Source of the DNA: Pandoraea capi
GTDB lineage: Bacteria; Pseudomonadota; Gammaproteobacteria; Burkholderiales; Burkholderiaceae
DNA: 64,000 nucleotides
Reading direction: 5' to 3'
Assembly (NCBI RefSeq): GCF_902459735.1
Contig: NZ_CABPRV010000012.1
Location: forward strand, 1 to 64,000
Below, one piece after another: positions 1 to 17,634 of this stretch; positions within the stretch are counted from its first letter, which is position 1, and the number at the start of each line of letters is the position of its first letter. A program made the translations under genes and the position numbers. The notes below the pieces were generated by a model, which was not told the DNA's origin, searched no databases, and worked only from the letters and a program-made list of their open reading frames with translations.

Positions 1-72
1 CGATTTCTTCATGACAAGGTTTCTCCTGCGGCCTTGCCACTAACTTTACAGTGGGATACTTCCGAGGGGTAA
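1..72 (+). CDS. C-terminal tail of an unidentified protein (partial)
   Basis: Frame +1 is open from the window edge to a TAA at 70-72 and encodes 23 residues ending in LQWDTSEG. Codon choice looks coding, and the next gene starts about 20 bases downstream, so this is probably the end of the preceding gene in the same operon. Too little remains to name a family. It could instead be the first part of the next gene separated by a frameshift. Confidence 0.3.
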   Translation, partial: RFLHDKVSPAALPLTLQWDTSEG

Positions 73-91
73 GGTCAGATACGAGCAGGCG

Positions 92-622
92 TTGGCAGGT
101 GACCTCGGGCCTTACGAGGCAGGGAGGATGCTCGTAGCCTATTGCGACGTTCGTGATATGCGCGGCGATTGGACTGTTGAGGCTTTTCGCGACCAGGTTG
201 AGAGGCGAACGCTAATCACTGAGTGGTTAAAACATGGTGATCTTCAGGCTGCGGTTCGGTTGCCGAAGCAAGCAGATGGAACCCCGAAGCCGAGCAGGCT
301 CTATTGCGAGAATCACAATCCCAAACGATCCGATGATTCGCGACGAGCCTATCAGCGAGATCGACGGTTCGTCGTTGAGTTTGAGCATGTTCAAGCGGAA
401 ATCTGGGCAAGGGACGCCGACAAATTGCCTCGGTGGGACTTAGAGGCACACGCCCACATCCGCCAAGAGGCCTATGTGATGCTACAGGCGATGAAGTCAC
501 CGACGCGGCTAATCGATAATCTGATTACGCAAGGGATTACGAAGCAGTCCGATCTCGCAAGGGTGCTTGGGGTTTCGCGGCAAGCTGTTTCTGCGGCGTT
601 AATAAAGCGCGGTGGAAAGTAA
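92..622 (+). CDS. Hypothetical protein with C-terminal helix-turn-helix
   Basis: A 176-residue soluble protein with a TTG start at 92, the only plausible start in the open frame. The frame is open back to position 44, and the residues before the TTG read like protein, so the true start or an upstream frameshift is uncertain. The middle is Arg-rich with a Cys/His pair (YCENHNP) and a run of charged helices (RRAYQRDRRF). The last 35 residues form a clear helix-turn-helix (KQSDLARVLGVSRQAVSAAL), so DNA binding is likely. I do not recognise the family. Its place in an integrated island suggests a regulator of the element. It ends 38 bases from the convergent next gene. Confidence 0.6.
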   Translation: MAGDLGPYEAGRMLVAYCDVRDMRGDWTVEAFRDQVERRTLITEWLKHGDLQAAVRLPKQADGTPKPSRLYCENHNPKRSDDSRRAYQRDRRFVVEFEHVQAEIWARDADKLPRWDLEAHAHIRQEAYVMLQAMKSPTRLIDNLITQGITKQSDLARVLGVSRQAVSAALIKRGGK

Positions 623-660
623 TCGTGGTCAATGCTGGGCGGCGATTTGGCCTGTAACAG

Positions 661-900
661 TCAGGGGCGAGATGGTCCAATCGACTTGACGAATATGAGG
701 CCTGCATCGTCAACATCAACCGGCTCAATTCGGCCATCGGGGTACTCGCGCACCAGTTCGTCCGTGCCAGGGTAGTCATAATAAATGCAGCGTCCCTGGC
801 TTAAATGAAACCTAGCTTCGCTGTCGTCATCGCAATCGCTCTCGAGGTCGCGGATGATCGCCAGGGTCACTTCATCGTCTTCCTTGTTCTCATTCCACAT
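661..900 (-). CDS. Small acidic hypothetical protein
   Basis: A 79-residue acidic protein (many Asp/Glu, including a DDD run) with a motif resembling YPGTDELVREYPDGRIEPV. No domain is recognised. Two ATG codons are adjacent, at 901-903 and 898-900. The GAGG Shine-Dalgarno sequence lies only about two bases from the first but five from the second, so the second is chosen. A possible promoter precedes it on the minus strand (TTGACG, then TAAAGC after 16 bases). Small acidic proteins in islands can be antitoxins, anti-restriction proteins or immunity proteins; nothing here decides between these. Confidence 0.55.
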   Translation of the reverse strand: MWNENKEDDEVTLAIIRDLESDCDDDSEARFHLSQGRCIYYDYPGTDELVREYPDGRIEPVDVDDAGLIFVKSIGPSRP

Positions 901-1042
901 CATGTCCTCGCCGATGTTCGCTTTAAGGGGTGTCTATTTCACGTCAACAAAAAGTTAACAAAAAATCAGCAGCGCGCTCACGCCGAGTCAACAATCCGTT
1001 ACCAGTTGTGTGATTGTCCGTAACTGACGATCGTATTCTTGC

Positions 1043-1138
1043 GAGCATACAAATGACGCGAAATTTAAGAGTTTGTATGCTCTTAATTTTGTTTAATTAT
1101 CAATCGGTTAGCTGGGAGAGTTGACGCGATGAGCATAC
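1043..1138. promoter_or_regulatory. GAGCATAC repeats: 11-bp inverted repeat plus a third copy (operator- or iteron-like)
   Basis: GAGCATACAAA at 1043-1053 is matched by its exact reverse complement at 1072-1082, and GAGCATAC recurs at 1131-1138. Two of the copies lie close to TGACGCG (1054-1060 and 1122-1128). A weak plus-strand promoter may overlap the third copy (TTGACG at 1121, then TATGTT at 1145). The layout fits a binding site for an element-encoded DNA-binding protein, such as the HTH protein at 92-622, but the binder is unknown. Confidence 0.5.
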
Positions 1139-1172
1139 GCTCTTTATGTTCCACTAGCTTTAGTTTCGGGGG

Positions 1173-1198
1173 CTCGGTTCTCGCATGCGAGAACCGAG
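1173..1198. repeat. Perfect 26-bp palindrome
   Basis: The arm CTCGGTTCTCGCA is followed at once by its exact reverse complement, with no spacer. It lies about 230 bases beyond the stop codon of the giant reverse transcriptase gene. As RNA it would form a long tight hairpin, but no T-run follows on either strand, so it is not a standard intrinsic terminator. It may be a protein-binding site, a recombination or replication site, or the structured part of a non-coding RNA. Confidence 0.7.
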
Positions 1199-1425
1199 GG
1201 TAACGTGAGTAGCCGAGTAGGGTAGGAGTTTCCTCAACGCTCAAAGGCTAAGAACGGAATCGGACATATGCGCCGACGAACGGTTTCCACTCGAGGTCGC
1301 GTTCATATCCTCTGAGCGATTTGAAGCAGGTTCTTTGATGGCGCTATCAGCAAATATTGGGCAAAGTTGAGCGACACGTTGCTCAATTAACTCGTTTCTC
1401 GACCGCGCCGTGATCTGCACTTAGT

Positions 1426-4400
1426 TCACTTGGCATCGCCGATGTTTGTACCACTACCCCCAGAAGGGGGGGATAGCCAAGGCGGCACCTCGATAGTCGG
1501 TATTGTGCCCTTGCACGTTAGGTCGGCAACAAGGAAGTCGAGCCACGCCGGTTCCGAGTTTGGGCCGCTAGCTTTAAAGCCCGGTTGTTGATGGCGGTCA
1601 TTCTGCCAAGCTGAAAATCGCTCACGAACGGCCCCGGGGTCGCTAAAGTAGGCGGAAAATACGTCGAGTTTTTTACGGCTATCGGGTGTCTGCACTCCTT
1701 GGGCATAGTCTTGGCGCAGGTCCGATAAGGCTTTGAAGAAGTGGTCGGGGCTGCGCGGCCCACTACCGTTGTCAGGGAAGATCTCCGCATGAAACAGCGC
1801 TTCACTCCTGGCGCACTTCGTCTCATCTTTCCATGCAGATATCATTTGGCCAGTACTTTGATTTGGTTGCCGCATTGCCTTAGACATGCCCTTCGCGTTT
1901 TGGGCTCTGTCCATGACTTCAACAACAGGTAGGTAGGCCACTAGGGACATTGGCTCGGGTAATAACTGTGGCCGAGGTTTGCCGCTGACGACGTGGATGG
2001 GGTCCAGATCAACTACTACCAAGGCTTGGTCGCGTTCGGACAATGCGCCTTGCCCATTCGCCTGCAGGATGCCCCTTTGCCAGCCGTGATATGGCGTCAG
2101 TAAGTGGACGACGCCAGGCTGTTCGGAGTGGCGCGCAACAGAGTCAATGCCGATGAAGCAACTGCCACCTCGAATCCCAGTGTGAACCGCATTGCAAAAG
2201 ACTGTGGCCGTTCCCGACGCCAATACACTGGCCTGACCTGCGTGCCAATAGTCATTGCTCCGGCTCGTGCACGCTGGAACCAAGAGTACCGACCGACGTT
2301 CGCGGTGAGCTTGCACGACTGAAAGCCACTCGCCAATAGCACGGATATCTTTCGAAACAGAGTCTTCGGCGCCAGCTGAACTCCCAAAGAATAGCTTCAT
2401 CATTCTGGCGAACTCCTGCACCAAAGGTCTGCGGTTGGCTGGACTGGTAAGCAGGAAGAGCTCGGAACAAATCAACTCCATGCAATATCGCAGGTTTGGC
2501 GACTCGTGCACTAGTGCGTTGATCAGCGCGTTGATTTGGGAACCAGACCATTCTTCCCTTTTGATAGCACTAAGCTCGCTTAAGACATTGTCTTCGGTGT
2601 AAAGAGGTGCTAGCGCGGAGCGCGACGGGCGGAACAGTTCATGCGCGGCGACCGCTCTATACTTTTTTGCGCGTTGAAACTGAATCGTAGCGCTCTCGGG
2701 ATCGAGGCCAAATTGTTGGCTTAGGTTGTCGTCGGGTTTCCACAATAAGGTGAGCTTTTCCTGCAGATGTTGGAGCTCATCATGTGAACTGAACTCGCGA
2801 AAAGTTCCAGCCAATACGGCCAGCCCTTTATAGCGACTGCGGAGTTCATCTTTTAGCCAATCAATAGTGTCGGACCGAATCGAGACCTCTGGAAGCACTA
2901 GTAGATGCACCCCCAGTTCATGACAGGCCTTCAATGCTTCTCCAATTAATACCCTGCGCCGGTGTTCAGGCCATGAGACGACACTTATGTGTTTGGCCCA
3001 ACGGGATTCTGAGCCACGCTTTGCTGCGCGGTCCACATCCAACAGGTCCCCGTCATTGAGTAAGCTGCGAAGCTCCTCGCGGGCACTTTTGCCCAATGGC
3101 AGGCCCCCAAGCCCAACTTCGGCTATCGGGTGCTTATAGCTGTCGTCCACTCGCCATTGGAATAGAGCTACGCGAAAATGACTGCTGGCACGCTCGTTTT
3201 CAGGATCGCTCGACTCAGAGCGCGTACTGCGCATCTTGCGCGACATGACCTGCTGAGCGCTAAATTCGGCAGCGATTACTTCCGCTTCGATCCGTCTGGC
3301 AGACTCGATACTATCTTCCGCGCCCACAGATTGATTGACGGCGTCGTTCGGATCCCACGACATAGCCCTTGTATTCTCCGAGGCCGGAACATCCGAGACT
3401 GGTTTAGCGTCAGACACTGCCGGTTCCGCGGGCACGGCGTTGATCCGCTCAAGGTCATCACCCACTGAAGCAGACAGTTTCCACTGTCCCAGCTTGAAGT
3501 CCAGTGTATGCACTGCCACAAGGTCGTCGCCGGCAATGCTGCGTGTTTCTGACCATACCGATAGCAACCGTCTTCCGTTCTGTTGCTTCTCTACGCCATC
3601 AGTGCCCAAGCTCGTGAACTGCGGCTTAGAGATTTGCCAGCTCGCATTGCTTGCATCGGTGAATTCGTCACTGTGTGGGTTGCGTCGAAACTGTTGAGCT
3701 TGCTGGCGCACGACACGCAGACCCAGCAACTCATCCAGCTTGCGTAATGCGCACGGCAGGGTGGTGATCAGTGCATCACAACGCTGTGAGGTGAATCTAG
3801 GCAGGGCGTCAAAGGGCCAAGGTTCGTCAGCTTCGTCCGGGCCGCCGGGTTCGCTTTGCCAAGCACTCAACTGTGAATACACTTGCTTCAATTCCAACAC
3901 GTCGAAAGCCTGAGGGAAATTTGCGTCGAGCAATCCGATCAGGGCTAGCATCCAGTGCCAGGGACTCGCACGGCAAAGGGAGGGCCAATCAGCGTCTTGA
4001 AGCCATTTGCGCATGGCACTGTAGTCGTGCTGCGGATCTAGACGCGCCATATCGGGTATATCCCAGGTGACGGGGATATTGAGGCGTTCGGGCATGCGGT
4101 TCGAGCCCTGCTGCGCTGTCAGTCCCCACAGCGCGGCCACGCTGCCGCGCAGACCGATACCTGTGGCGGCTAGTGCAAGTGCAACGCGCAGCGGGGGCGC
4201 CGGGGCCTTGATATTGGCACGCGGCGACAGCGCCTGATCCAGCGCCTTGTACAGAGCCAGCATCAACGCAAGCTCCGGCCGCAACGCCCCGACATGAGTC
4301 GATGCTTGCTCCAGTTGAAGCCCTTGCAGTGCCCATAATGGCAGCCTGGTAAGCACCTCAGGAAAAACCTGATGCAGCACCTTGCGTAAATCGCCGCCGC

Positions 4401-7400
4401 CGCGCATCTGCAGGCGAAGCGCCATGGCGCGGGTTTCGGCCTCTACGATAATCAAATGACGCACCTGCTGATCCAGCGGCTGATCGGCTGGGAAACTACG
4501 GAGCAGTGTCAGGGCTCGCGTTACCGTGCTTGGTAGCGCTGTCTTGTCAGTCGAGGCCGATGTGGCGTCGATCTGCGCCTCTGATATGTATGCGCCCTGC
4601 AACTTGCGCAACTGCTGACGAAGCACGTAATTTTCGATGAGGGCACGCTGACTTGCTGCTTGTGCGTCCGGTAGTTCGTCGGGGCCAACTTCCTCGTCCG
4701 CCCATTGTTCGTCTCGGTGGCCTGTCTCACCCGCCATATCGCCAGCAACGCCTAGCACATCCGCCACGGCCCAACCGACTCGCCACAGATTGGCGTTCGT
4801 TTTTGGCACGTTCACCGTGCGGACACGGTCGTCATGGTCATGGAACCACGCATTCACACCCAGCACCTTGCAATCCACCGGCTCCGCTAGTAGGCGTAAG
4901 ACATTTTGTTCACCGTCGCTAGAGGTGAACAACTGCGGCCTAAAGGGGACGTATACACATTGGTCATTTTCAGGAGCCAGCGTGCGGTGAATGACCAATA
5001 GCGCTTCAAACAAGCGGGCAGCCCTGAGTGTGGTCGGTGTGTCGTTTTCCTCAGGGGCATTCAAATCGAGCGCACCGCTGCTTCTGTCGACAGCCAACTT
5101 ATCTGTTGCACATTTAACTGGTTCGAAGCCTAGTGATTCGAAAGCAGATTCGATTGTCGTGTGAGCATTTAACACGACCTTAACAAAAGACTGCGCTGTG
5201 ACCGGCGATGGCGGCACTGAATACCGATATATGTGTCTTCCGCTGCCAGGTATAGGTGCATCTACTGCGTAGAGGGATGTAACGGTTTCCTTTGCGACTG
5301 GTAGGTGTGGAATCAATTGCGGACGCTTATCGTCGGCGAGTCCGACCAACAAATTTGGAAATCTAGACAGCGCATCAAGTCCAGAGCTTCGCGGCACGCA
5401 ACTGAGTACGAAGTCGATTGCTAGAGCCAATGCATCGTCGCCAATGTGTCCAGTCCGGCCATGCCCTTTTTCGCTCCCTAAGTGCTGACACACGTCCAAT
5501 GCGAGTCTGTCACCAAGATCGATCGAAGGCGCCTCAATGTTGCGGTCCTTGATTGATGCCAACGGGTCTCGAACACCGTCATCCTCCGTCACCGCGCTAA
5601 TGCGCTCGGCCGCCAGACAGAGCCACTCTATGGCTGTCACGCTGGTTCCGTGTTGCGCCTCAACGAAGTGCCGTGCTGCAGGTGTTCCCGCCAGGCGCCG
5701 GGCCTTGCGCGCTACCAGGCGAGCGCGTCGCCGAACGTGCGAAAAATTCTCTGCCGGCCTGACCGCGTCAAAAAAGCCCACTTGACAGACCACTACGGCC
5801 AGACGCTGACGCTTCACTCTGTTTTTTGGCAGTTCGGTCAAGGTCTGGTCGTTCTCCTGCCATGGGTTCGGATCTAATAGCTTGTCCAAGCCCTCCACTG
5901 CATAAAGCCAATGGTAGCCTCGCAGTTTGAACGCGTCGGCCCAGTCATGACCTTCACAGACGTTGTCCCACAACTCCCAGAAGCGACGCCAAACAGCAAC
6001 TCCATCACGGCCAAGCTGAGCGTCATCTTGTTCGGCCGTTACCTGCCACCACAGCCAGCGGGCGCACAGGCCTAAGTCATTGGGCCTCAAGTCGGGCGCC
6101 AACATAGCAGCCTTGACTTGCGCCTCGATTCGTTCAGGGCTAGCCATCAATGCGGGGTGACGCAACATCTTCAATGCGCACTGACGGTCAACTGTAGGCA
6201 TGTCCTCACCCAAGCCCCAGCCGGCCTCGCCATCTCCCATCAGTGGTGGCTCCCACGCAGGTACCGATGCAGCCAAACCACGCCCCTCATTGAGCTGACG
6301 CATCACCTGTGTCGGAGAGCCGGTGCGCACTCGATCACCCTTTTGGATCAGCGTGATCGACAGTTTTGCGGCCGTGCTCTGGAGAGTCTCGCGCAGCTCG
6401 GTGAGCAACGCTTCGCTATCTGCAAAAAGCACTATGTCGTCCACGTAGCGCGCGTAACCTGCGCGCGGGCGTAGCAAGCCATCGGTGCCCGGCTGAGCGG
6501 TCCGGCGCATGAACTGGCGTGCCGCATCGTCCACAGGAAACAAGGCAATAGTGCCGATATAGGCCGATAAAACGGGACCCTGCGGAATGCCAATGGCTTC
6601 GTCACCTCGTTTAGTTGAGCCGTCTCGCTGTGGATCTCGAAACTCGTAGCCGAAAAGCAGATCGCTGAAAAGTCGCTCTAAGGCGACGTCTCGCTCGGCG
6701 GGGTCCGCCACGTCGTTAAGCCCGAGTACGTTAGCGAAGTCCTGAGGCACGCCGCCGATGGCCAGCGCTCTGCGTAATGGCTGCAGCAAAGCATCTCGCA
6801 CCACGTAGCGCTGAATCGCATCGTAGTAGCGCTCGGCGTCCAGTCGCAGCACGTGCACGCGTGGCCCGATCGCGTGGCACTGTTCCGCAAGGTTGGCCAT
6901 GAATTCGCGCCAGCATTGGCCAAAGGGGCGGAACATTCCCTGATCAGATGGTGCCTTGTCGCCTTCAAGAACATCCATGTCAATCTGATAGCCGAAGCTC
7001 AGGGTTGCTGGCTCGCCTAACTCTAGATCCGGCTCGTTGAGAGAAGCGAAAGGGCCGGTCACCATCACCTCCTGTCGCGAGGCGTACCAACGTACCGCTG
7101 GAATGCTGGCCGAGAAAGTCTGACCACTTGCACTCAGTCGATCATGTCGCTGAGTAAGCAACTCGTTAAGAAGCAGTTGTTGTAGGTGCAAATCGGCTGG
7201 ATGCGGCATGACTTTGCGACGCGGGTCGTTAAGCACCGTGCCGAAGGCCAGCTTGCGGGGCAAGTTAACCGCATCGTAGGGGGCGGCCTGTCGCCAGTGA
7301 GTGTCTGGCCCCCCAATTGTCGCGCGAAGGCGATTCAGGGCGATCTGATCAAAGAGGCGAGCGTTACCACCTAACGTTAGCCACACCTCTTCGTCACAGG

Positions 7401-8943
7401 GTAGTTCGCCGCGCCTCGCACCATGGTAGGCCAGAGTTCTAGCGAGGGCTGCGCGTTCGTACTCACCGTCGAGAAATAAACTGCGCCCGAGGTACGGTTT
7501 GCCCCCTTCCTTACTCGATAACACCTGTTGCAATTCATTTGCCCAAGCCCAAGGGGGGATGTGCTCTAGGCGCTTCACCATTTCATCCGATGATCGGCGC
7601 CCGTGTATTTTTTTGACGGCTAACGCAGTCCTGAACACGGCGCGCTCACGCACCGATGCTGCAAGTTGACCCCAGCGCTGATCCTGCAGTTCGGATGTAT
7701 CTTGGCTGCCCAAAGCTGCCACTAGCAATGCGGCTTCTGCGGGCAAGTCGTAGCGTTGTAACCATGTTGCAACGTCCTCGTGGGACTTGAAATCGCGCAG
7801 ACTGGAGTCCGGATCCTTGCCGAGCGCTGGCTGAGTGCGCCAGGGCATACCAACCCAGCGCAAGTTCACCCCAGTCAGGCCCATAAGCTCACGGACTAGT
7901 CGCTCCGTGCCTCCAAAGCCGGCTGGGTCGTTGTCTAAAAAAATGCAGAATGTCAAGGGGGCTGAGGTGGATGGCTGATCCTCTGAAAACTTCCGCAATA
8001 GCTCGAACTGCCCTTTGCCGAGGCTGATACCCATCAGCGCAACGGAGTTATGACCGAGGGCCTGTAGCCGCAACGCGTCTAGAAAACCCTCCACTAGATA
8101 GAGTGTTGCAGGTCTTTCATTCTTTAAATTGTCGGTTAGGGCCGCGAAGGCTACGGACGCGTTGAATAGATGTTTGGACTTTTCAAATCCGGATGTGAGC
8201 AGATACTTCGGAACGCCTTCGGGCGGCACGTTTAGTAGTGCTCGACCAGCAAAGCCGACTACTTCGGGACGTTTGACATTTGTGTTGCGAATGGGGATTA
8301 CCACGCGGCCGTCATGGAAGCAGTCTTGGAATTGGTCTGACAAATCCAGCTTTAATTGGTCTGCTTTGGACGTGGACCTCAGACGTTTGATCAGCCCCAA
8401 CCCCTCCAAGCCATCGATCAGCTCGGCTTGTTCTCCGAGGTTCTTGGCTCGCAACCCATCGACCAATACTCCACGAGTGATGCAGCGCAGTCCCTGGCCA
8501 TGGAGAAAGTCGGCATCGAACGCACGCGCTTCGCACCAAGTCTCGAACCGCTTATTGTCATGGCGCTCGTTGAAAATTCGCAACGCAAAGTTCAGTGCAA
8601 TTTCGCTTGTGGCCTCGCGTTGGGCTTGAGGCGAGGGCTGGTTGCGCGGACTCTGGATGCCAAACTGCTGGGCTATCCACTGCACGGCTGGAAGGAACTC
8701 CACCCCCTGAACCTGCTTCACAAGCTCAATGGCATTGCCATGTGCCCCGCAGGCAAAGCAATGGTAGTGCGCCGACGAATTGCCATCGGCCGTAAAGAGG
8801 TTGAGCGATGGTCGAGTGTCCTGGTGGAACGGGCACAGCGACCGAGTTTGCGCCCCGCGTCTTTCAATTTGCATGCCGAGGCGCAGTGCCACGTCCTCCA
8901 ACGGCACTTTTGTCAATAGGTCACCAATGTTGTAACGATCCAC
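1426..8943 (-). CDS. Giant DnaG-type primase / reverse transcriptase / nitrilase-like fusion protein
   Basis: A single intact 2505-residue frame. The N-terminus is DnaG-like: a CHC2 zinc ribbon (C37, H40, C62, C65), an RNAP-basic region at about 205-262 (GRVVIPI..., VGFAGRAL, PKYLLTS) and a Toprim domain with E285 and D337/D339 present. A reverse transcriptase follows at about 620-880: motif A around D702 (LRLDAERYYD), GIPQGP at 785-790, and YVDD at 833-836. Residues about 880-1930 are mostly helical and unrecognised. The C-terminus, about 1935-2330, is nitrilase-like with a possible triad E2019 (LPE), K2094 and C2159 (LICSEL). RT-nitrilase fusions are known as type 1 defence-associated RTs; the fused complete primase is the unusual part. 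The ATG at 8943 begins exactly at the zinc-ribbon leader. It is divergent from the protease gene. Likely role: anti-phage defence (inference). Confidence 0.9.
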   Translation of the reverse strand: MDRYNIGDLLTKVPLEDVALRLGMQIERRGAQTRSLCPFHQDTRPSLNLFTADGNSSAHYHCFACGAHGNAIELVKQVQGVEFLPAVQWIAQQFGIQSPRNQPSPQAQREATSEIALNFALRIFNERHDNKRFETWCEARAFDADFLHGQGLRCITRGVLVDGLRAKNLGEQAELIDGLEGLGLIKRLRSTSKADQLKLDLSDQFQDCFHDGRVVIPIRNTNVKRPEVVGFAGRALLNVPPEGVPKYLLTSGFEKSKHLFNASVAFAALTDNLKNERPATLYLVEGFLDALRLQALGHNSVALMGISLGKGQFELLRKFSEDQPSTSAPLTFCIFLDNDPAGFGGTERLVRELMGLTGVNLRWVGMPWRTQPALGKDPDSSLRDFKSHEDVATWLQRYDLPAEAALLVAALGSQDTSELQDQRWGQLAASVRERAVFRTALAVKKIHGRRSSDEMVKRLEHIPPWAWANELQQVLSSKEGGKPYLGRSLFLDGEYERAALARTLAYHGARRGELPCDEEVWLTLGGNARLFDQIALNRLRATIGGPDTHWRQAAPYDAVNLPRKLAFGTVLNDPRRKVMPHPADLHLQQLLLNELLTQRHDRLSASGQTFSASIPAVRWYASRQEVMVTGPFASLNEPDLELGEPATLSFGYQIDMDVLEGDKAPSDQGMFRPFGQCWREFMANLAEQCHAIGPRVHVLRLDAERYYDAIQRYVVRDALLQPLRRALAIGGVPQDFANVLGLNDVADPAERDVALERLFSDLLFGYEFRDPQRDGSTKRGDEAIGIPQGPVLSAYIGTIALFPVDDAARQFMRRTAQPGTDGLLRPRAGYARYVDDIVLFADSEALLTELRETLQSTAAKLSITLIQKGDRVRTGSPTQVMRQLNEGRGLAASVPAWEPPLMGDGEAGWGLGEDMPTVDRQCALKMLRHPALMASPERIEAQVKAAMLAPDLRPNDLGLCARWLWWQVTAEQDDAQLGRDGVAVWRRFWELWDNVCEGHDWADAFKLRGYHWLYAVEGLDKLLDPNPWQENDQTLTELPKNRVKRQRLAVVVCQVGFFDAVRPAENFSHVRRRARLVARKARRLAGTPAARHFVEAQHGTSVTAIEWLCLAAERISAVTEDDGVRDPLASIKDRNIEAPSIDLGDRLALDVCQHLGSEKGHGRTGHIGDDALALAIDFVLSCVPRSSGLDALSRFPNLLVGLADDKRPQLIPHLPVAKETVTSLYAVDAPIPGSGRHIYRYSVPPSPVTAQSFVKVVLNAHTTIESAFESLGFEPVKCATDKLAVDRSSGALDLNAPEENDTPTTLRAARLFEALLVIHRTLAPENDQCVYVPFRPQLFTSSDGEQNVLRLLAEPVDCKVLGVNAWFHDHDDRVRTVNVPKTNANLWRVGWAVADVLGVAGDMAGETGHRDEQWADEEVGPDELPDAQAASQRALIENYVLRQQLRKLQGAYISEAQIDATSASTDKTALPSTVTRALTLLRSFPADQPLDQQVRHLIIVEAETRAMALRLQMRGGGDLRKVLHQVFPEVLTRLPLWALQGLQLEQASTHVGALRPELALMLALYKALDQALSPRANIKAPAPPLRVALALAATGIGLRGSVAALWGLTAQQGSNRMPERLNIPVTWDIPDMARLDPQHDYSAMRKWLQDADWPSLCRASPWHWMLALIGLLDANFPQAFDVLELKQVYSQLSAWQSEPGGPDEADEPWPFDALPRFTSQRCDALITTLPCALRKLDELLGLRVVRQQAQQFRRNPHSDEFTDASNASWQISKPQFTSLGTDGVEKQQNGRRLLSVWSETRSIAGDDLVAVHTLDFKLGQWKLSASVGDDLERINAVPAEPAVSDAKPVSDVPASENTRAMSWDPNDAVNQSVGAEDSIESARRIEAEVIAAEFSAQQVMSRKMRSTRSESSDPENERASSHFRVALFQWRVDDSYKHPIAEVGLGGLPLGKSAREELRSLLNDGDLLDVDRAAKRGSESRWAKHISVVSWPEHRRRVLIGEALKACHELGVHLLVLPEVSIRSDTIDWLKDELRSRYKGLAVLAGTFREFSSHDELQHLQEKLTLLWKPDDNLSQQFGLDPESATIQFQRAKKYRAVAAHELFRPSRSALAPLYTEDNVLSELSAIKREEWSGSQINALINALVHESPNLRYCMELICSELFLLTSPANRRPLVQEFARMMKLFFGSSAGAEDSVSKDIRAIGEWLSVVQAHRERRSVLLVPACTSRSNDYWHAGQASVLASGTATVFCNAVHTGIRGGSCFIGIDSVARHSEQPGVVHLLTPYHGWQRGILQANGQGALSERDQALVVVDLDPIHVVSGKPRPQLLPEPMSLVAYLPVVEVMDRAQNAKGMSKAMRQPNQSTGQMISAWKDETKCARSEALFHAEIFPDNGSGPRSPDHFFKALSDLRQDYAQGVQTPDSRKKLDVFSAYFSDPGAVRERFSAWQNDRHQQPGFKASGPNSEPAWLDFLVADLTCKGTIPTIEVPPWLSPPSGGSGTNIGDAK

Positions 8944-9326
8944 AGCCCCTCCAGATTATTTTGGATTCATGACAAATATTTTATCAGGGCACGTAGAACA
9001 ATGAATCATTGTCTCCGGTATTCAGCGACCAACAAAAGTTGCATGGTGGGCGGGAGTTGCTTGTTGCAGCTGATGACCGTAGGCTTGTCGTGGTGGGCCC
9101 CTCCATCGGTGCATGCCGGGATTGCCACGTCGATGTTGTTGCGGAACGACTTATCAAGTCGGTTGAAGTGGGGGGGATCAAGCGGAGTAACTGCCCGAAC
9201 CGGACTGCTGCGACCCGGGAAGTTTTTGGGTACATTGATATTTTAAACTGCCGGATTACTCGGTGTGGATTTTGTTTGGAAAATAATATTTAAAATTATG
9301 TAAAAATTATTTCGATAAACTAAATT
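8944..9326. promoter_or_regulatory. Divergent intergenic region of the defence-like cassette
   Basis: This stretch separates the minus-strand RT gene from the plus-strand protease gene and must hold both promoters. Positions 8955-8990 and 9240-9326 are A+T rich and promoter-like, but no single -35/-10 pair stands out. The G+C-richer middle contains a possible small gene (9009-9293). It is also a candidate site for a cassette-associated non-coding RNA. Confidence 0.4.
9009..9293 (+). CDS. Possible small Cys-rich protein or gene remnant upstream of the protease
   Basis: An open frame of 94 codons from a TTG. It has no obvious ribosome-binding site, but composition typical of real coding DNA in this phase: the first codon position is strongly G-rich (many GTN, GAN, GGN). 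The product contains CRDC and further cysteines (CRITRCGFC near the end), which could bind a metal. No family is recognised. It ends 33 bases before the protease start, on the same strand. It may be a small third member of that operon, a decayed gene, or chance; overlapping frames on both strands are also open. Confidence 0.3.
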   Translation: MSPVFSDQQKLHGGRELLVAADDRRLVVVGPSIGACRDCHVDVVAERLIKSVEVGGIKRSNCPNRTAATREVFGYIDILNCRITRCGFCLENNI

Positions 9327-10112
9327 TTGGAAATTTTTCCGATTGCTCAGTTCAATAATGTTGGGAATGATATTGCGAGAAAATGGGAGGGAAGCATTGT
9401 TTCATTTCGCGCAAAGAAGGAGTTTAATGATTGCAAAATATTGACTATGGGTGGTGGATTTGTATTAAATTACTATGGAAGTCTTTCAATAGCCACCGCA
9501 GCGCATGTGGTTTTAGAGTACAACAGGGGATTTGGCTTGGGGGTGCGAGTTGGTGGTCAACATCTCTCGTTGGACTCCGTTGAGGCTTTGTTAAACAAAG
9601 ATCAGGACATTGCGTTCATTCCATTCTCAAATGATTTTTTAGGGAGGAAATACTATCCCCTAATCGCGGGAAAGAGGGATGACGCCATCGCCACTTCGTC
9701 ATTTATGATTCTTGGATTGCCAGAGTCAAGGAATCGTCTTGATATACGTGATTCTCGAGCGACGTTCAATATGCTTAACGTCATGGTTCATAGTTTTGAA
9801 TATGATAGGAAAGCTGGGGATCTTATTTTTCCCTACGATCCCAAGAGTGTATTTATAGAGCCCGGGAGTTCACAGAAGAATATCGGTTCGCTTCGGGGGC
9901 TAAGCGGAGCTCCCGTCGCCCAGATACTGATTGTCAAGAAAACTGGTGCATTAACTTTACGTCCCGTAGGCGTTTTCAAAGAGTGGCGGCAGCACTCCGT
10001 TAAACGCTTGGTGGCGAGCTCTTTCCGAGATTTCTCCGATGAGCTTGACGAAATGATCGATGCAGGAGATTTTGCAGCTACATCTAATTTTTCATATATT
10101 GATGTTGTGTGA
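9327..10112 (+). CDS. Trypsin-like serine protease, cassette-associated
   Basis: A 261-residue protein without signal peptide or membrane segment, so probably cytoplasmic. The chymotrypsin-fold triad can be read in order: H60 in SIATAAHV, D94 in KDQDIAFIPF, and S193 in LRGLSGAPV (the GxSGxP box). Length fits a single trypsin domain. The start is a TTG at 9327 with no strong Shine-Dalgarno sequence; the sequence around it is very A+T rich, unlike the chromosome. It lies divergent from the primase-RT-nitrilase gene and 42 bases before the nuclease-like gene. Trypsin-like domains recur in prokaryotic defence proteins as effectors that cleave a target once infection is sensed; that role here is inference. 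Confidence 0.75.
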   Translation: MEIFPIAQFNNVGNDIARKWEGSIVSFRAKKEFNDCKILTMGGGFVLNYYGSLSIATAAHVVLEYNRGFGLGVRVGGQHLSLDSVEALLNKDQDIAFIPFSNDFLGRKYYPLIAGKRDDAIATSSFMILGLPESRNRLDIRDSRATFNMLNVMVHSFEYDRKAGDLIFPYDPKSVFIEPGSSQKNIGSLRGLSGAPVAQILIVKKTGALTLRPVGVFKEWRQHSVKRLVASSFRDFSDELDEMIDAGDFAATSNFSYIDVV

Positions 10113-10154
10113 TGAAAAATACGGGTTGGGAAAATAATTTTTAAGCGATTCTTT

Positions 10155-11378
10155 ATGAACAGAAAACTCTCCGTAGAGATTGATCGATCGACATGGCCAG
10201 GTCCGGGAATTCGACCGCTATTTCCGAAAAGTTTCACGGGCGGAAGCAGTTCTTACGACCTAAACATTCCTGCGATGTTGATGGTCATCGGGTATCTGAC
10301 GACGCCGACTTCTTCAACGGGTGTTTCGCTTAGCGAGTTTTGGGCGTGGGTACGATATCTTGCTGCGATATCGAATGAGCCGCACATAAGTTTGACCCGG
10401 AGTTTCTCGGAGCTCGACGCACATCAGAAGACTATTTTGAGTGACGACTTCGGTATGGGGGTTCCGATGCTCTGGTTGTTCGATAAGCTTTCGTTGACAG
10501 CGGTGGTTGACGGCAGGTATTTCATGCAAAGAATTGCAGCATCGGTTGGTGCGACACAAAAGCGGACTGCAAAACGAGGTCCGAATAAGACGCCTGATTT
10601 CGTTGCGCGAGATGTCGCCGGTCGATGGCATGTCATTGAATGTAAAGGTACGCAGTCAGGTCCTGAGTACAGTCTCAAGCAGCTCGGGGCCAAAGGTCTT
10701 GTGCTCAGTGGGGGCGTTGCTCAGAAGCGGTCAATCCAGTTTCCGAAAGGACATACCGGTCAGCGACTTGTCTGTGGGCTGGACATTGACGTTGAAGGTG
10801 GGAGGACAGGTGTCCTCCGGATCGTAGATCCTGAGCCAGAAGACCCATTCGAAATTGCAGCAAGCCAACTTATCCTCGCCGAAGACGCTGCGAATCGTGG
10901 GGTCATGTCAAAAGCGCTGCGTCTGGCTGGCTTTGATATCACAGCAGGAGCGGTTGCGTCACCATTTGGTCGTCGGCCGGATGCAACGCGCGCAAAGTCG
11001 TCCAGAGCGGAACGCGTTCGACAGGAAGAGGCGGCGATGCGTGATCAAAGTTCGCGAGATGAGCTCCGCGACAAGGTAGATCATCCAAACGTATTTAATG
11101 GACAATTTCGCGGACGGGAAACGCTCATTGAACTACCTCGGGGCGTCTGGGTAGGTGAGCAGCATGTAAAGCAGGTGATCATCAGGCAGGGCGTAAATCG
11201 CGACGCCTTGGCCGCGCTTGAAGAGCAACCTACCGTTGAGGATTTGGTAGACGGGGAACGCGCGCCGTGGGCCAAGCTAATGGGAAGAAGCATTATTGAA
11301 TCAGATGGAATGGTGGCGACGATGAAAATCGGCGACGTGTTTCGTTCCGAGATGATTCTGCAAGAGCGCAATGGGTGA
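10155..11378 (+). CDS. PD-(D/E)xK nuclease-like protein
   Basis: A 407-residue soluble protein. The motif P147-D148, then thirteen residues, then E162-C-K164 (TPDFVARD ... HVIECKGT) matches the restriction-endonuclease-like PD-(D/E)xK core. In such proteins the Asp and Glu bind Mg2+ and the Lys is catalytic. It is followed by SLKQLGAKG, which resembles the helix after the core. The N-terminal 130 residues and C-terminal 200 residues are unrecognised and may recognise a target. It is downstream of the serine protease on the same strand, probably co-transcribed, and is the last gene before the island edge. It could be a DNA- or RNA-cutting effector, or a structural relative whose activity differs. 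Confidence 0.65.
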   Translation: MNRKLSVEIDRSTWPGPGIRPLFPKSFTGGSSSYDLNIPAMLMVIGYLTTPTSSTGVSLSEFWAWVRYLAAISNEPHISLTRSFSELDAHQKTILSDDFGMGVPMLWLFDKLSLTAVVDGRYFMQRIAASVGATQKRTAKRGPNKTPDFVARDVAGRWHVIECKGTQSGPEYSLKQLGAKGLVLSGGVAQKRSIQFPKGHTGQRLVCGLDIDVEGGRTGVLRIVDPEPEDPFEIAASQLILAEDAANRGVMSKALRLAGFDITAGAVASPFGRRPDATRAKSSRAERVRQEEAAMRDQSSRDELRDKVDHPNVFNGQFRGRETLIELPRGVWVGEQHVKQVIIRQGVNRDALAALEEQPTVEDLVDGERAPWAKLMGRSIIESDGMVATMKIGDVFRSEMILQERNG

Positions 11379-11630
11379 CCTGGCAGAAAGTCGCGCTAAG
11401 TAACCTACGATGCCGGCGGGTTTGATTGATACGCGAGCGATTGCGGCATGGAACGCGTTGGCGAAAGCACCGCTATTAGCGACCGCGACGGGGTACAGTT
11501 CCGGTACACCCATGACGTTCACCGAACTCTAGAAAATTACGCTAACCTATTGTCACGTAAATACTTTTCGATGTTTCTGCTTACGGTCGCCTTCCCTTGA
11601 TTTTCCTAGGCATCCACAGTTAGCTGCAAA
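11379..11630. other. Non-coding island edge
   Basis: About 250 bases between the nuclease-like gene and the tRNA fragment. A minus-strand open frame at 11301-11522 overlaps the end of the nuclease gene and is not supported. No terminator, inverted repeat or direct repeat is evident. It may contain recombinase arm sites, which cannot be recognised by eye. Confidence 0.4.
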
Positions 11631-11675
11631 CTCATAATCCCTTGGTCGCTGGTTCGAACCCAGCACGGCCTACCA
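11631..11675 (+). other. attR: 3' fragment of a tRNA-Met gene
   Basis: The sequence runs from the anticodon loop CTCATAA (anticodon CAT) through the 3' anticodon strand (TCCCT), variable loop, T-arm GCTGG / TTCGAAC / CCAGC, acceptor strand ACGGCCT, discriminator A and CCA. No D-arm or 5' acceptor strand precedes it, and the bases just upstream (GCAAA) cannot pair with TCCCT. This is a truncated copy made by integration. The intact tRNA-Met should lie left of the window on the same strand, at the other end of the island. Confidence 0.85.
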
Positions 11676-11681
11676 GGAATA

Positions 11682-11715
11682 GGGCCAGCAGACGATTGTC
11701 TGCTGGCCCTTTTTT
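11682..11715 (+). terminator. Rho-independent terminator of the tRNA-Met locus
   Basis: A 12-bp perfect stem (GGGCCAGCAGAC and its complement) with a GATT loop, followed by six T. It sits seven bases after the CCA end of the tRNA fragment, as expected for the original tRNA terminator left behind on the chromosomal side. Confidence 0.9.
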
Positions 11716-11730
11716 GTTGTCCGAACTAAT

Positions 11731-12033
11731 GTGACTGACATGGAGCACAAGACGATGGAAGTAGAAGACGGCGTGATCGAAGCCCTTGACGAGTCGCGCG
11801 GGCGGTTCGTTGCACGCTTTGCTTCCGGGCGTTATGCGGCATTCGAGCTGGTGCGACAGCCAGGGCAGGACAAAGGTGTGGGGCGTATCGCCGTCGGCGA
11901 TTCGGTTCGCGCGGCACCAGCCAGCACCGGAAAGATAGTGATGCTGAGCATGTCGCGAAAATTGCCGTTGCTGGTGAACGGATTGACCGGTTCGACTAGT
12001 CAGAGCGAGTGCCTTCGCCTGATGGGCGAGTAG
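11731..12033 (+). CDS. Hypothetical protein, first chromosomal gene after the island
   Basis: A 100-residue protein with a GTG start at 11731; an in-frame ATG at 11740 would shorten it by three residues. Sequence such as GRFVARFASGRYAAFELV and VGRIAVGDSVRA suggests a small beta-barrel domain in the first 70 residues. No family is recognised, and there is no signal peptide or membrane segment. It follows the tRNA terminator and converges on the agmatine deiminase-like gene, 21 bases away. Whether it once lay directly behind the tRNA is likely but cannot be tested here. Confidence 0.55.
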   Translation: MTDMEHKTMEVEDGVIEALDESRGRFVARFASGRYAAFELVRQPGQDKGVGRIAVGDSVRAAPASTGKIVMLSMSRKLPLLVNGLTGSTSQSECLRLMGE

Positions 12034-12054
12034 CCTATCGCCCGGTTTCGCCCC

Positions 12055-13173
12055 TCAAGTCGGCTGCTGCTGCGTGGTGCAGTGAATTCCGCCGCCACCG
12101 CCCGCAATACCGTCGATATTGAGTTGGACGATTTCTCGTTTGGGAAACAGATCGCGCAAGGTGTCCCGCGTGCAGTTATCCGCCTCGCGATCGCCGAATT
12201 GCGGGGCGATGACGGCTCCATTGCATACATAAAAGTTGACATACCCGGCGGCGAATTCGTCCGACTCGTACGTGCTGCGCACGCTGTCGGGGCCGGGCAG
12301 AACGACCACTTGCAGTGGGCGTCCAGCGGCATCGGTCGCGTGACGCAGGATGTCGAGATGGCGCTTCGTGACGGCATGATCGTAAGATGACGTATCGTTG
12401 TCCAGATGGGCGATCACCACGCCCGGACGCGCGAATCTCGCGTAGAAGTCGGTGTGCCCGTCGGTGATGTCCTTCCCGGCGATCCCCGGCAACCAGATGA
12501 TCTTGCGCAGCCCGAGCAAGCGCATCAACTCGCCTTCGCAAGCGGTCTTGCTGAGTCCCGGATTGCGATTGCGGTTCAGCACGCAACTCTCCGTGATGAT
12601 GGCCGTGCCGTCGCCATCCACCTCGATACCGCCGCCTTCGAGCACCAGACGCGTCGTCAGTCGGCGCACGCCGGCTTTTGCGGTAACGAACGCGGCGACT
12701 TCGGCATCGTCGTCGCAAGTCTGTTTGCCGCCCCAACCGTTGAAGTTGAAGTCGATCCCGGCCAGTTCGCCGCGACGAGTGCGTACGAAGACGGGGCCGG
12801 TGTCGCGCATCCAGAGATCGTCGATGGGCTGGACGATCAGGTTCACCTTGTTGCCGCACATGCGGTGCGCGACGTCGTAGTCATCTTCCCGAACCAGCAT
12901 GTTGACGGGTTCGAAACTGCCGATCGCTTGTGCGATGCGCGCAAGCCCTTCCTGCGCCGCGCGCTGAAGGCGACGCCCCCACACATCTTCGCTCGGACCG
13001 AATGCCATCCATGTTGCGGCATGACGCTCGCCTTCGTCCGGCATGGTCCATTCGGACGACGATGTCCCGGCGGCGAACGCAGCACCCGTCAGCCCGCTCC
13101 CCAAAGCGCTCGCGAGCATCGTCGCCCCGGATACCGTCAATCCCGTCTTCATAAACCCTCGCCGTGTCGGCAT
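12055..13173 (-). CDS. Agmatine deiminase / peptidyl-arginine deiminase family protein, Tat-exported
   Basis: A 372-residue member of the porphyromonas-type PAD / AguA guanidino-group hydrolase family, which turns agmatine to N-carbamoylputrescine or acts on related guanidines. Motifs in order: WMRDTGPVFV (substrate Asp), LEGGGIEVDGDGT, GHTDFYARF (catalytic His/Asp), and GGGGIHC with the nucleophile Cys at about 365. The N-terminus carries a twin-arginine signal (RRGFMK, hydrophobic stretch, cleavage near AFAAG), so it works in the periplasm; cytoplasmic AguA enzymes lack such a signal. It is divergent from a LysR regulator that probably controls it. Exact substrate is not fixed by sequence. 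Confidence 0.85.
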   Translation of the reverse strand: MPTRRGFMKTGLTVSGATMLASALGSGLTGAAFAAGTSSSEWTMPDEGERHAATWMAFGPSEDVWGRRLQRAAQEGLARIAQAIGSFEPVNMLVREDDYDVAHRMCGNKVNLIVQPIDDLWMRDTGPVFVRTRRGELAGIDFNFNGWGGKQTCDDDAEVAAFVTAKAGVRRLTTRLVLEGGGIEVDGDGTAIITESCVLNRNRNPGLSKTACEGELMRLLGLRKIIWLPGIAGKDITDGHTDFYARFARPGVVIAHLDNDTSSYDHAVTKRHLDILRHATDAAGRPLQVVVLPGPDSVRSTYESDEFAAGYVNFYVCNGAVIAPQFGDREADNCTRDTLRDLFPKREIVQLNIDGIAGGGGGIHCTTQQQPT

Positions 13174-13335
13174 GACCTGATTCTCTTGATGATGTTGTGC
13201 ACGATGACGCCATGAAGTGACCGCGTGTGCGTTGGCGGGTCAGGCAGTTCACGCAGTTTGAGGCACATCATCGATAAATAAAAATGAGTTGTTTTGCTAT
13301 TATCGATCAACTTTTCTCATATCTCGGGGCGTGCG
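13174..13335. promoter_or_regulatory. Divergent control region with inverted repeat ATCGATAA / TTATCGAT
   Basis: ATCGATAA at 13270-13277 is mirrored by TTATCGAT at 13300-13307, 22 bases apart, just upstream of the LysR gene and in an A+T-rich stretch. The placement between a LysR gene and its divergent target is typical for a LysR-type operator; the binding protein is inferred. Confidence 0.45.
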
Positions 13336-14226
13336 ATGCATCGTCAGCGAATTCCTTCCCTGAAGTTGCTCATGGGCTTCGAAGCCGCGGCGCGCCACGG
13401 CAATTTCTCGCGTGCGGCGGACGAATTGCACGTCAGCCAGTCGGCGATCAGTCATCAGGTGCAGCAACTGGAGGAGGAGATCGGGCAGCCGCTGTTCCGG
13501 CGTGTGGGGCGCGGTGTCGAACTGACGGTGGCGGGGGAGGTGTTACAGCGCAGCGTGCAGCGCTCGGTCGATACGCTGCGCAGCGGGCTGGGGCGCATTG
13601 CCACGTATCTGGACCCCGGACTGGTGGTCATCGTGGGGCCGGCGCAGGTGTTGCACGGCTGGCTGAGCCCGCGTCTCGACGATCTGCTGGCGCATATTCC
13701 GTCGCTATGCCCGATGCTGTCGACGGACGAATCGGCGCGTTTCATCGACGAGATGGACATCGATATCGCCATCAGCGACCGTCCGCTTCAGCAAACCGGG
13801 TTGACGCAGACGCCATGGCTGCAAGACGAGTGGGTGATCGTGGCCGAGGCGACGTTGGCGGAACGCCTGACGCGCGTGCCGCTGTCAGCGCATGTGCAGG
13901 CGACATCGTTGCTTTGCCTCGAAGAAAGCTTCACGCGCGACGATACGGCATCGCTGTTTCGGGAGCGGCTGGCGTCGTTTCGCAAGCATACGATCTACGA
14001 CGACGAGCGCCTGCTGCTCGACGCCGCGCTGCGAGGCCGGGGCATCGCATGCATCTCACGATTGCTGGCCGATGAGGCGTTGCGGCAAGGGCGTCTGTGC
14101 CGGCTCGACGGCTATCCGGGCAGCGAAGGCCGCACGTGGTGGATCTCCCGCGCCGCCGGAGAACCGCGTTCGCCGGCGGTCAAGGAAGTCTTCGATTGGT
14201 TGATGCTCGAAGCGCGAGGCGTCTAG
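13336..14226 (+). CDS. LysR-family transcriptional regulator, GcvA-like
   Basis: A 296-residue regulator. The N-terminal winged HTH (SLKLLMGFEAAARHGNFSRAADELHVSQSAISHQVQQLE) is followed by a substrate-binding domain at about 90-296. The ATG at 13336 is preferred over an upstream TTG at 13294, because LysR proteins begin a few residues before the HTH and GGGG lies about seven bases ahead. The SHQVQQLE helix and the start resemble GcvA-type regulators. It is divergent from the periplasmic deiminase and probably senses a related nitrogen compound. Confidence 0.85.
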   Translation: MHRQRIPSLKLLMGFEAAARHGNFSRAADELHVSQSAISHQVQQLEEEIGQPLFRRVGRGVELTVAGEVLQRSVQRSVDTLRSGLGRIATYLDPGLVVIVGPAQVLHGWLSPRLDDLLAHIPSLCPMLSTDESARFIDEMDIDIAISDRPLQQTGLTQTPWLQDEWVIVAEATLAERLTRVPLSAHVQATSLLCLEESFTRDDTASLFRERLASFRKHTIYDDERLLLDAALRGRGIACISRLLADEALRQGRLCRLDGYPGSEGRTWWISRAAGEPRSPAVKEVFDWLMLEARGV

Positions 14227-14303
14227 CGTATTCATGGGTGAAATGCCGGCGGCATTCGATCCTGCCACCGGCATTGCCTGGGACTTGCGCCCCACGATAG
14301 CTG

Positions 14304-15659
14304 TCAGACCACCACTGTCTTACCGTCAGGGCGTCCGAGCTTCGGTCCGACGCCGGGCCTCACCTGCAACATCGCGAAGACGCCGATGGCCGTCGCGACC
14401 GCCGTGGCGATGAACATCGACGAATAGCCGTACTTCGCCGACAGAATGCCCGCCAGGGTCGGTGCGAGCACGGACGCAATGTTCGCGATGAAGTGCATCA
14501 GGCCGCTGAACGTACCCACGCGCGACGGCGCCGTGTCGATCACGACGGCCCAATACACCGAGTTCGGCAGCGCATTGAGCGCATTGCCCAGCGTCATCAG
14601 GGCGATCACGGCCCACACGCTCTGCGCTTGCGACACCAGCAGGAAGCACAGCGTCGTGCACGTCAGCGACGCGGCGGCGAACCAGCTGCGCGCGATCACC
14701 AGCTTGCCGGTCTTGCGGTACAGCCAGTCGGAGATGCGCCCGCCGAGCAGCACCGTCACGCACGCCCCCGTCCACGGAATCATGCCGATGTACCACAGCG
14801 ACGACAGCGTGAAATGGAACTCGTCCGCGAGATACTTCGGTGTCCAGGTCAGCAACATGAAGTTGACGTAGATGAACGCGAAATAACCGATCGAGTTGAA
14901 CACCAGCGTCTTGCTCCTGAAGAAGCTCCACCACGGCATTTCGCTCGCCGCAGCGGCGGACGACGACGGCTGCGCCGGGCGTCCCGCCTGAATCAGCGCG
15001 ACCTCGGCCGCATTCACGCGGGGATTGTCTTCCGGACGATTCGTGTAGACGCGGGCAAACAGCGCGATCAGCACGAAGCCGGCTACGCCGAGCACCACAT
15101 ACATCGTGCGCCAGCTATCGGTGAGCAGCAGCAGACCAACCGCCACCGGGGCCGTGAGCAGCGCGCCCAGCGGCGTGCTCAGCAGCCCGATCGACACGGC
15201 GAAACCGCGCTCGGACGGCGACGCCCACGCCGACATCGTCTTGTTGATGATGGAGTAGGCCGGTCCCTCGGCGAAGCCGAACAGCACACGAATCGTGGCG
15301 AAGCCCGTGAGCGCCGAACCGCCGAAGAGCGCCACGCCGATATCGCCCGCCCAGATCATCGCGATGGCAAAGGCCGACCACGCAATACCGGCGATCACCC
15401 ATACCTTCTTTGCGCCGAGCCGGTCGGCCAGCGCACCGCCGAACAGTGCGCCGAACATATAGCCGTAGCCGAAGTAGCCGAGCACGGCCCCCCATCCCGC
15501 ACGATCGAAGCCGTATTCCGCCGTGATCTGCGCGGCCGAGTACGAGATCGCGCCCCGGTCGATGTAGTTCACGAGGGCGATCACGACAATGAGTGCGAAT
15601 ACCGCGAACCGGTATCGGGTCGCCCCGGCGGCCGGATGGCCCACAGTGGTTGGTTGCAT
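14304..15659 (-). CDS. MFS transporter, anion:cation symporter (ACS) type
   Basis: A 451-residue inner-membrane protein with twelve predicted membrane segments. The first contains the ACS-type signature (ALVNYIDRGAISY) and the loop after helix 2-3 has the MFS motif GGALADRLGAKK. A longer frame extends upstream to 15845, but the ATG at 15659 has a clean AGGAGA ribosome site and a normal ACS N-terminus. ACS members import organic anions such as sugar acids, tartrate, phthalate or allantoate. It is divergent from an asparaginase gene and a GntR regulator, with which it probably forms one functional unit for a nitrogen-containing organic acid; the substrate is unknown. Confidence 0.85.
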   Translation of the reverse strand: MQPTTVGHPAAGATRYRFAVFALIVVIALVNYIDRGAISYSAAQITAEYGFDRAGWGAVLGYFGYGYMFGALFGGALADRLGAKKVWVIAGIAWSAFAIAMIWAGDIGVALFGGSALTGFATIRVLFGFAEGPAYSIINKTMSAWASPSERGFAVSIGLLSTPLGALLTAPVAVGLLLLTDSWRTMYVVLGVAGFVLIALFARVYTNRPEDNPRVNAAEVALIQAGRPAQPSSSAAAASEMPWWSFFRSKTLVFNSIGYFAFIYVNFMLLTWTPKYLADEFHFTLSSLWYIGMIPWTGACVTVLLGGRISDWLYRKTGKLVIARSWFAAASLTCTTLCFLLVSQAQSVWAVIALMTLGNALNALPNSVYWAVVIDTAPSRVGTFSGLMHFIANIASVLAPTLAGILSAKYGYSSMFIATAVATAIGVFAMLQVRPGVGPKLGRPDGKTVVV

Positions 15660-15799
15660 GACATCTCCTGATATGGGTTTTCTCTGGGGGAGCGCCGCGA
15701 AGCGCACAATGCCCTTCGCAAACGATTGTCGATTATATATAATGCACAATGCATAGCAATCGAAATTAAAATCGTCTCTACTCACCTGATCCCTCTGCC
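15660..15799. promoter_or_regulatory. Divergent promoter region with palindrome ATTATATATAAT
   Basis: This short A+T-rich stretch drives the MFS (minus) and the asparaginase-GntR pair (plus). A perfect 12-bp palindrome lies at 15732-15743, with TGCACAATGCAT just after it. FCD-type GntR regulators commonly bind short palindromes in such positions, so the GntR encoded at 16806 is the likely ligand. Confidence 0.5.
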
Positions 15800-17591: not shown

Positions 17592-17634
17592 CGTCGCGCG
17601 GATCAGGCAGCACCGACGCCGCCAGCGACACCCC

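Follow-up and report, generated by a model that had tools for sequence, protein, structure and literature searches.

The window analysed here, a stretch of 64,000 nucleotides of Pandoraea capi DNA (contig NZ_CABPRV010000012.1, positions 1 to 64,000), carries on its minus strand, between positions 1426 and 8943, a gene for a single protein that joins a DnaG-type primase, a reverse transcriptase (RT) and a nitrilase-type domain. The open reading frame (ORF) starts with GTG and comprises 2505 codons and a stop. A first-pass annotation of this DNA had given the same boundaries, with no strand, and the same three domains, and both proved correct, the domains being borne out by Pfam and profile matches together with kept motifs. 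When compared with PADLOC-DB, the protein matched the model RT_UG29 (PDLC03767) with 2783 bits, residues 1-2491 aligning with model positions 1-2279 of 2280, and this model spans the primase, RT and nitrilase parts alike. Because the match is full length, the protein belongs to an already listed group of defence RTs and is not a new family; it is not an unlisted variant of the type 1 systems, with which the first-pass annotation had compared it. Judged by its sequence, the window protein is most likely a single-gene defence-associated reverse transcriptase (DRT) of the UG29 group, which was reportedly defined by Mestre et al. in 2022. The gene and the parts that carry its recognisable motifs are as follows:

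1426..8943, minus strand: whole gene, UG29 reverse transcriptase (ORF; PADLOC RT_UG29, 2783 bits over residues 1-2491)
8641..8928, minus strand: DnaG CHC2 zinc ribbon, residues 6-101, with C37, H40, C62 and C65 (Pfam Zn_ribbon_DnaG, 6.6e-17, above cut-off; 13/13)
8155..8340, minus strand: DnaG N-terminal catalytic part, residues 202-263, with R213, R234 and K246 (DNAG_N, 5.7e-5, below cut-off; 13/13)
7807..8100, minus strand: DnaG Toprim, residues 282-379, with E285, D289, D337, D339, D377 and D379 (Toprim_2, 1e-6, above cut-off; 13/13)
6334..6939, minus strand: reverse transcriptase, residues 669-870, with D702, GIPQGP and YVDD at 833-836 (RVT_1 below cut-off; hhalign; 12/12)
6265..6267, minus strand: S893, conjectured candidate for a protein-priming residue (conservation, 12/12)
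1909..3186, minus strand: nitrilase-type domain, residues 1920-2345, with E2019, K2093 and C2159 and an insertion past the cysteine (hhalign against DRT1 and UG5; 11/11)

Residues were counted over 13 UG29 proteins, namely the window protein and 12 relatives, one of which was read as a first piece only; the denominators are 13 proteins for the primase, 12 for the RT and 11 for the nitrilase. In the primase part, the zinc ribbon C37/H40/C62/C65 and the Toprim residues E285, D337 and D339 lie where the first-pass annotation had put them, and all 13 DnaG catalytic positions that we checked (zinc, basic and acidic) were identical in 13/13 proteins, each of which thus holds a CHC2 zinc ribbon, the basic residues and the acidic metal residues of DnaG. 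Compared by position, the same 13 residues were present in 27 to 30 of 30 DnaG-type proteins (36 loci were tried, six of them without a usable ORF). We take the single residues to play the same roles in the UG29 primase, as zinc ligands, basic residues and metal-binding acidic residues. A profile of the UG29 primases run against solved structures matched DnaG, with 2au3 as the best entry (E 2.4e-15). The model TIGR01391 (dnaG) reached 136 bits over residues 7-397, which is under its cut-off of 283.6, and the domain is not to be equated with the housekeeping enzyme. It shares the zinc ribbon, catalytic core and metal residues of bacterial DnaG, but it differs in being fused to an RT and a nitrilase, in forming a clade of its own, and in that a helicase-binding domain was not among the Pfam matches.

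In the primase tree, the UG29 sequences formed one clade (support 100/99; the Sphingomonas row was long and of odd composition), and for this reason the three parts seem to have been joined long ago and to have stayed together since. A separate dnaG-like gene lies on contig 14 of the window's genome, and separate DnaG-like matches were found in 4/5 of the relatives' genomes searched (of 9), which indicates that the fused primase is an extra copy. Since every checked DnaG catalytic residue is kept, real RNA synthesis can be argued for, and, in agreement with the first-pass annotation, which had called the primase apparently active, we regard it as probably active on the strength of these conserved positions.

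The RT part was recognised by Pfam RVT_1 over residues 763-864, below cut-off, and hhalign of the UG29 RT against four DRT1-type proteins gave an E of 5.8e-8 over residues 669-843. D702, GIPQGP and YVDD at 833-836 were found at the places named by the first-pass annotation, and the catalytic residues are kept throughout, with D702, Y707, D708, Q788, G789 and Y833-V-D-D836 invariant (12/12) and GIAQGP replacing GIPQGP in the Polaromonas copy. Between YVDD and residue 1103, S893 was the only invariant Ser, Thr or Tyr (12/12). Among the PADLOC RT models besides UG29, the window protein scored best with UG19 (31.5 bits), followed by Drt1a (26.9 bits, over the RT part only and thus not the full length of a DRT1) and, weakly, UG10_large (16.9); for the Sphingomonas copy, UG10_large was the best of these other models (69.4 bits). 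We built an RT tree from 12 UG29 rows, four DRT1 rows (of eight loci, the rest being fragments), two UG5 rows and, from six loci, four rows for group II introns, of which two were identical. The groups separated, the deep joins were long branches meeting, and UG29 joined neither DRT1 nor UG5. Searches for further comparators returned UG10_large in 0/349 genomes and Drt3a in 0/120, zero counts that do not show absence.

At the C-terminal end, E2019, K2093, C2159 and N2251 were invariant in 11/11 proteins, so that the nitrilase triad appears in the order Glu-Lys-Cys. The first-pass annotation had named E2019, K2094 and C2159; the first and last of these stand, but the invariant lysine is K2093, as K2094 is a lysine in 10/11 proteins and an Arg in the Sphingomonas copy. 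The cysteine motif is ELICSE, with ICSE or VCSE as its UG5 counterpart, and past the insertion come the conserved N2251 in FCNA and then a GGS stretch (GQS in Sphingomonas). Pfam CN_hydrolase had no match in the window protein or in any of 10 UG29 members, which does not exclude membership of the nitrilases because the DRT1-type protein L048 has none either. Against the DRT1 and UG5 nitrilases together, hhalign gave an E of 1.3e-5 (probability 81%; 0/100 shuffles as high), covering the Glu and Lys motifs, and against the four DRT1 nitrilases alone an E of 5.5e-4 (0/60 column shuffles as high). When generic nitrilases and DRT1 were combined, E was 0.0011 (0/60 shuffles as high); as a yardstick, the DRT1-type nitrilases compared with the same 27 generic nitrilases (30 loci returned, three filtered out) gave 2.4e-6. 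Of 10 UG29 members, one touched the PADLOC Drt1a model (E 0.035) and one a CARF-nitrilase model (0.03), while the nitrilase-part profile run against solved structures hit nothing beyond chance, its two matches being to unrelated molecules (best E 0.93). From these profile comparisons and the conserved motifs, we assign the UG29 C-terminal domain as a divergent nitrilase that, by sequence, is related to those of DRT1 and UG5 and not detectably to generic ones.

The gene is more than a chance assembly, since other bacteria have relatives that match it along its entire length or the greater part of it. Two lie on plasmids, of Polaromonas naphthalenivorans (59% identical) and Sphingomonas aerolata (27-29%), and nine on genome contigs assigned to Rubrivivax, Burkholderiaceae, Simplicispira, Rhodoferax, Azonexus, Zoogloea (a locus truncated where its contig stops), Burkholderiales, Paraburkholderia and a Stenotrophomonas metagenome-assembled genome, with best segments 54-61% identical; the search that yielded these nine detects close relatives only. 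A further relative lies in G087, a genome of the window's order. The Stenotrophomonas copy (L014:9992-17499) is split into several frames and may be a pseudogene or reflect assembly errors. The three catalytic centres, with intact motifs, persist in one chain down to 27% identity, and mean identity to nine relatives was 62-71% in the enzymatic parts, a range that becomes 62-77% when two stretches flanking the RT palm are counted in. It was 57% in the primase linker (residues 106-200), 61% in residues 396-600, 42-56% in residues 961-1890 and 37% in the tail.

We then set the protein beside the known systems that it resembles. By definition, a class 3 UG/Abi RT carries either a nitrilase or a phosphohydrolase domain in the same chain as the RT (PMC13275509, of which part of the text is drawn on here and below), and UG29 combines an RT with a DRT1/UG5-like nitrilase in one chain. 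In DRT1, untemplated DNA is made by the RT on serine 402, which lies 77 residues past the catalytic D325; the resulting adducts favour the formation of tetramers and of quiescent filaments, abortive infection requires both RT and nitrilase, activity against T4 depends on a phage single-stranded DNA (ssDNA) helicase, and a solved structure of the nitrilase exists (PMC13275509). UG29 resembles DRT1/UG1 in having an RT, a middle part and a nitrilase with E, K and C in the same order, the two domains matching as given above, but DRT1 is about half as long, and no primase is named for it in the consulted part of PMC13275509 or was matched in L048. S402 has no demonstrated counterpart in UG29, S893 being a candidate only. 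With UG5-nitrilase (DRT5), of which we had two examples (open frames of 1017 and 1073 amino acids), UG29 shares a nitrilase with this type of cysteine motif (ICSE or VCSE in UG5), but that RT was too divergent to place. In DRT7/UG10, according to the partial account used here, an RT is fused to a primase-polymerase of the archaeo-eukaryotic type, which likewise puts RT and primase into one chain; the UG29 primase is of the bacterial DnaG type and is not such an enzyme. DnaG and archaeo-eukaryotic primases have unrelated folds.

Taken two at a time, the domains of UG29 have precedents, and with the window gene a family already on record gains a further member. In openly licensed papers we found no account of primase, RT and nitrilase together. 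An RT-associated DnaG-like protein was likewise already listed, as PADLOC holds a separate model of that kind, RTasDnaG-like (PDLC03800), which was the second match of the window protein. In this model, the N-terminal part corresponds to the UG29 primase and the C-terminal part to UG29 residues at about 2309-2479, past the nitrilase cysteine; its source may have been UG29-like proteins without the middle region. The myRT paper counts dnaG among the domains occasionally found near RT genes (PMC8934634).

The explanation that we consider best, and to which we give an even chance, is that UG29 is a DRT in which DNA made by the RT controls a nitrilase effector and the DnaG core primes the RT. Taken singly, an anti-phage function, as read from sequence, is very probable, and an effector role of the nitrilase, by analogy with DRT1, is likely. 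The RT would synthesise DNA and thereby control the C-terminal nitrilase, the killing arm, as in DRT1; upon phage infection the nitrilase would be freed and would attack or make a small molecule, so that growth stops (abortive infection). In the least certain step, the DnaG core would lay short RNA primers on ssDNA, either its own product or phage replication intermediates, and the RT would extend them into DNA that is RNA-primed or double-stranded, in parallel to DRT7/UG10. The protein would in this way combine the principle of DRT1, control of a nitrilase effector by DNA from the RT, with the pairing of RT and primase known from DRT7/UG10. That the primase feeds the RT of the same protein falls slightly short of even odds in our estimate, and self-priming is best called plausible and putative: since those class 1 and class 3 DRTs that have been characterised prime on protein (PMC13275509), RNA priming is one option among several, and RNA priming and protein priming at S893 may both be present. 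The most elaborate form, a one-protein writer of RNA-primed duplexes in which DnaG makes primers on ssDNA, their extension by the RT yields RNA-DNA or double-stranded DNA, and a nitrilase toxin is gated by the state of this product, strikes us as rather unlikely.

Several observations weigh against this explanation. In the nitrilase comparisons, the match to the two UG5 nitrilases alone was weak (E 0.02, 0/100 shuffles as high), that between complete DRT1 proteins and a more extended C-terminal alignment was modest (E 0.0031, probability 10%), and the match to the 27 generic nitrilases was not significant (E 0.016, 1/60 shuffles as high). UG29 was held together weakly in the RT tree (83/68), which does not resolve its placement among the groups, and AlphaFold models of residues 1-1190 and 1310-2505, with mean predicted local distance difference test (pLDDT) values of 46.4 and 37.5, were too poor for use. 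Few defence-type neighbours were seen (3/13 loci, in a chosen subset of neighbours), and searches of openly licensed literature found no experiment on, or function of, UG29. DRT1 and DRT5 use protein priming, and the DRT1 adducts are not templates in vivo (PMC13275509); this lack of copying speaks against a second strand in DRT1, but DRT1 is not known to have a primase.

The protein priming of class 1 and class 3 DRTs in PMC13275509 is also what lends weight to an alternative in which DNA synthesis by the RT starts from the protein itself, with S893 as one candidate site, in the manner of DRT1, and the DnaG part makes no primer for the RT and acts as a sensor of phage ssDNA or replication proteins that unlocks the nitrilase. 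The standing of S893 as sole invariant hydroxyl residue in its stretch fits this account, as does the need of DRT1 for a phage ssDNA helicase in its activity against T4, from the same source, but a pure sensor would not require every catalytic metal residue, and all those checked were invariant in 13/13 proteins; we judge this reading possible and on the unlikely side. The Toprim part could instead be a nuclease effector, as is thought for Toprim domains of other defence proteins, which would give two effectors per protein. This we hold to be improbable, as the match covers DnaG as a whole, including the CHC2 zinc ribbon, DNAG_N and R213/R234/K246, which are features of a primase. Replication or repair of mobile elements, which a primase plus a polymerase would suit and with which two plasmid-borne relatives agree, seems more improbable still, since it is hard to see what a nitrilase would do in replication, few genomes have the gene (full length in 2/399 genomes of the order among the matches listed, the window's own included), and genes of the STAND/Avs type lie near 3/13 loci.

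The gene bears on how DNA synthesis by defence RTs starts and on what the DNA product does. It unites an RT with a DnaG-type RNA primase and an effector of the DRT1 type, so that priming, polymerisation and killing can be taken apart with point mutants. UG29 would also work as one gene with no accessory RNA or conserved partner found: among ORFs of at least 70 amino acids in 14 loci and the window, no family stood beside UG29 in more than two loci, and the 450 bases (339 in one) 5′ of 11/13 genes (without L004 and L014) revealed no conserved upstream RNA, with 34% mean identity and three invariant columns. If the proposal is true, UG29 would be the first RT immune system to make its own RNA primers, as far as found in openly licensed papers, and primases of two unrelated folds, DnaG in UG29 and archaeo-eukaryotic in UG10, would have been recruited independently by defence RTs. 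We consider UG29 a good lead on how defence RTs begin DNA synthesis.

Searching genomes with the RT_UG29 family model returned matches in 266/399 genomes of the order and 132/398 of the phylum. Among the matches listed, two (order) and one (phylum), counting the window's own genome, covered the whole model, and the remainder lay at about positions 5-390 and resemble ordinary DnaG; the group looks rare, with scattered hosts. In viral contigs, neither the window protein nor the nitrilase alignment found a match, and the family alignment found 11 loci with the primase part only (9) or RT motifs only (2). An unannotated 2.4 kb record, L005 (DQ115810.1, Cyanobacteria phage AS-1 contig_3), contains part of a UG29 gene (residues 770-1242, 53% identity) that adjoins an ORF resembling ISL3-family transposases; bacterial DNA may have contaminated the phage assembly, or an insertion sequence may have cut a UG29 gene.

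The remaining features of the gene are the following:

8948..8952, minus strand: ribosome-binding-site-like GGAGG, ending four bases ahead of the start codon (sequence reading)
7144..7758, minus strand: region between primase and RT, residues 396-600, fairly conserved (without Pfam match; 61% mean identity)
3274..6063, minus strand: less conserved middle, residues 961-1890 (42-56% mean identity)
1429..1908, minus strand: variable C-terminal tail, residues 2346-2505 (37% mean identity; 5/160 columns invariant)

The middle region is perhaps mostly helical according to the poor structure model, in which helices with block pLDDT of 50-87 appeared only at about residues 921-1080. The alignments used for structure prediction had nine and eight rows including the window's, without Polaromonas, Sphingomonas, G087 and the broken L014 copy.

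Turning to the surroundings, we scanned 10 neighbouring proteins with PADLOC and 10, partly the same, with Pfam, as a chosen subset of all neighbours. The STAND/Avs-type genes belong to G087, L003 and L009. In G087 (contig 1, about 379.9-384.9 kb; L046:894-5942, minus strand), the next large ORF past UG29 is convergent with it and Avs1b-like (1978 bits). L003:757-6183 and L009:4097-9412, both on the minus strand and upstream of the UG29 gene of their locus, each encode a protein of about 1,800 residues; the two are related, the former annotated as NACHT and matching the DUF626_VIII, PDC-M54A and Avs4 models modestly; L009 also holds a Schlafen AlbA_2 protein. These large STAND/NACHT-type proteins form one of the families common to two loci, the others being a transposase (L003, L045) and the family of window 13294-14223 (plus strand, 310 amino acids) and L008:25135-26097 (321 amino acids), about 4 to 8 kb from UG29.

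Rfam gave no match at the gathering score in window positions 1-14000. G+C content was 45-60% over positions 1-12000 (52-60% in the nine kb holding the gene), whereas over positions 12001-24000 it was 58-67% in every kb but one, which had 54%; the low-G+C region is as for an acquired island. The two genes adjoining UG29 (9327-10112 and 10155-11378) had no Pfam match at E 0.001. The second of them, on the plus strand, encodes 407 amino acids that are 48-54% identical to hypothetical proteins on eight plasmids from several proteobacterial genera, and 12055-13173, on the minus strand, encodes an agmatine/peptidylarginine deiminase family protein (PAD_porph, 1e-107).
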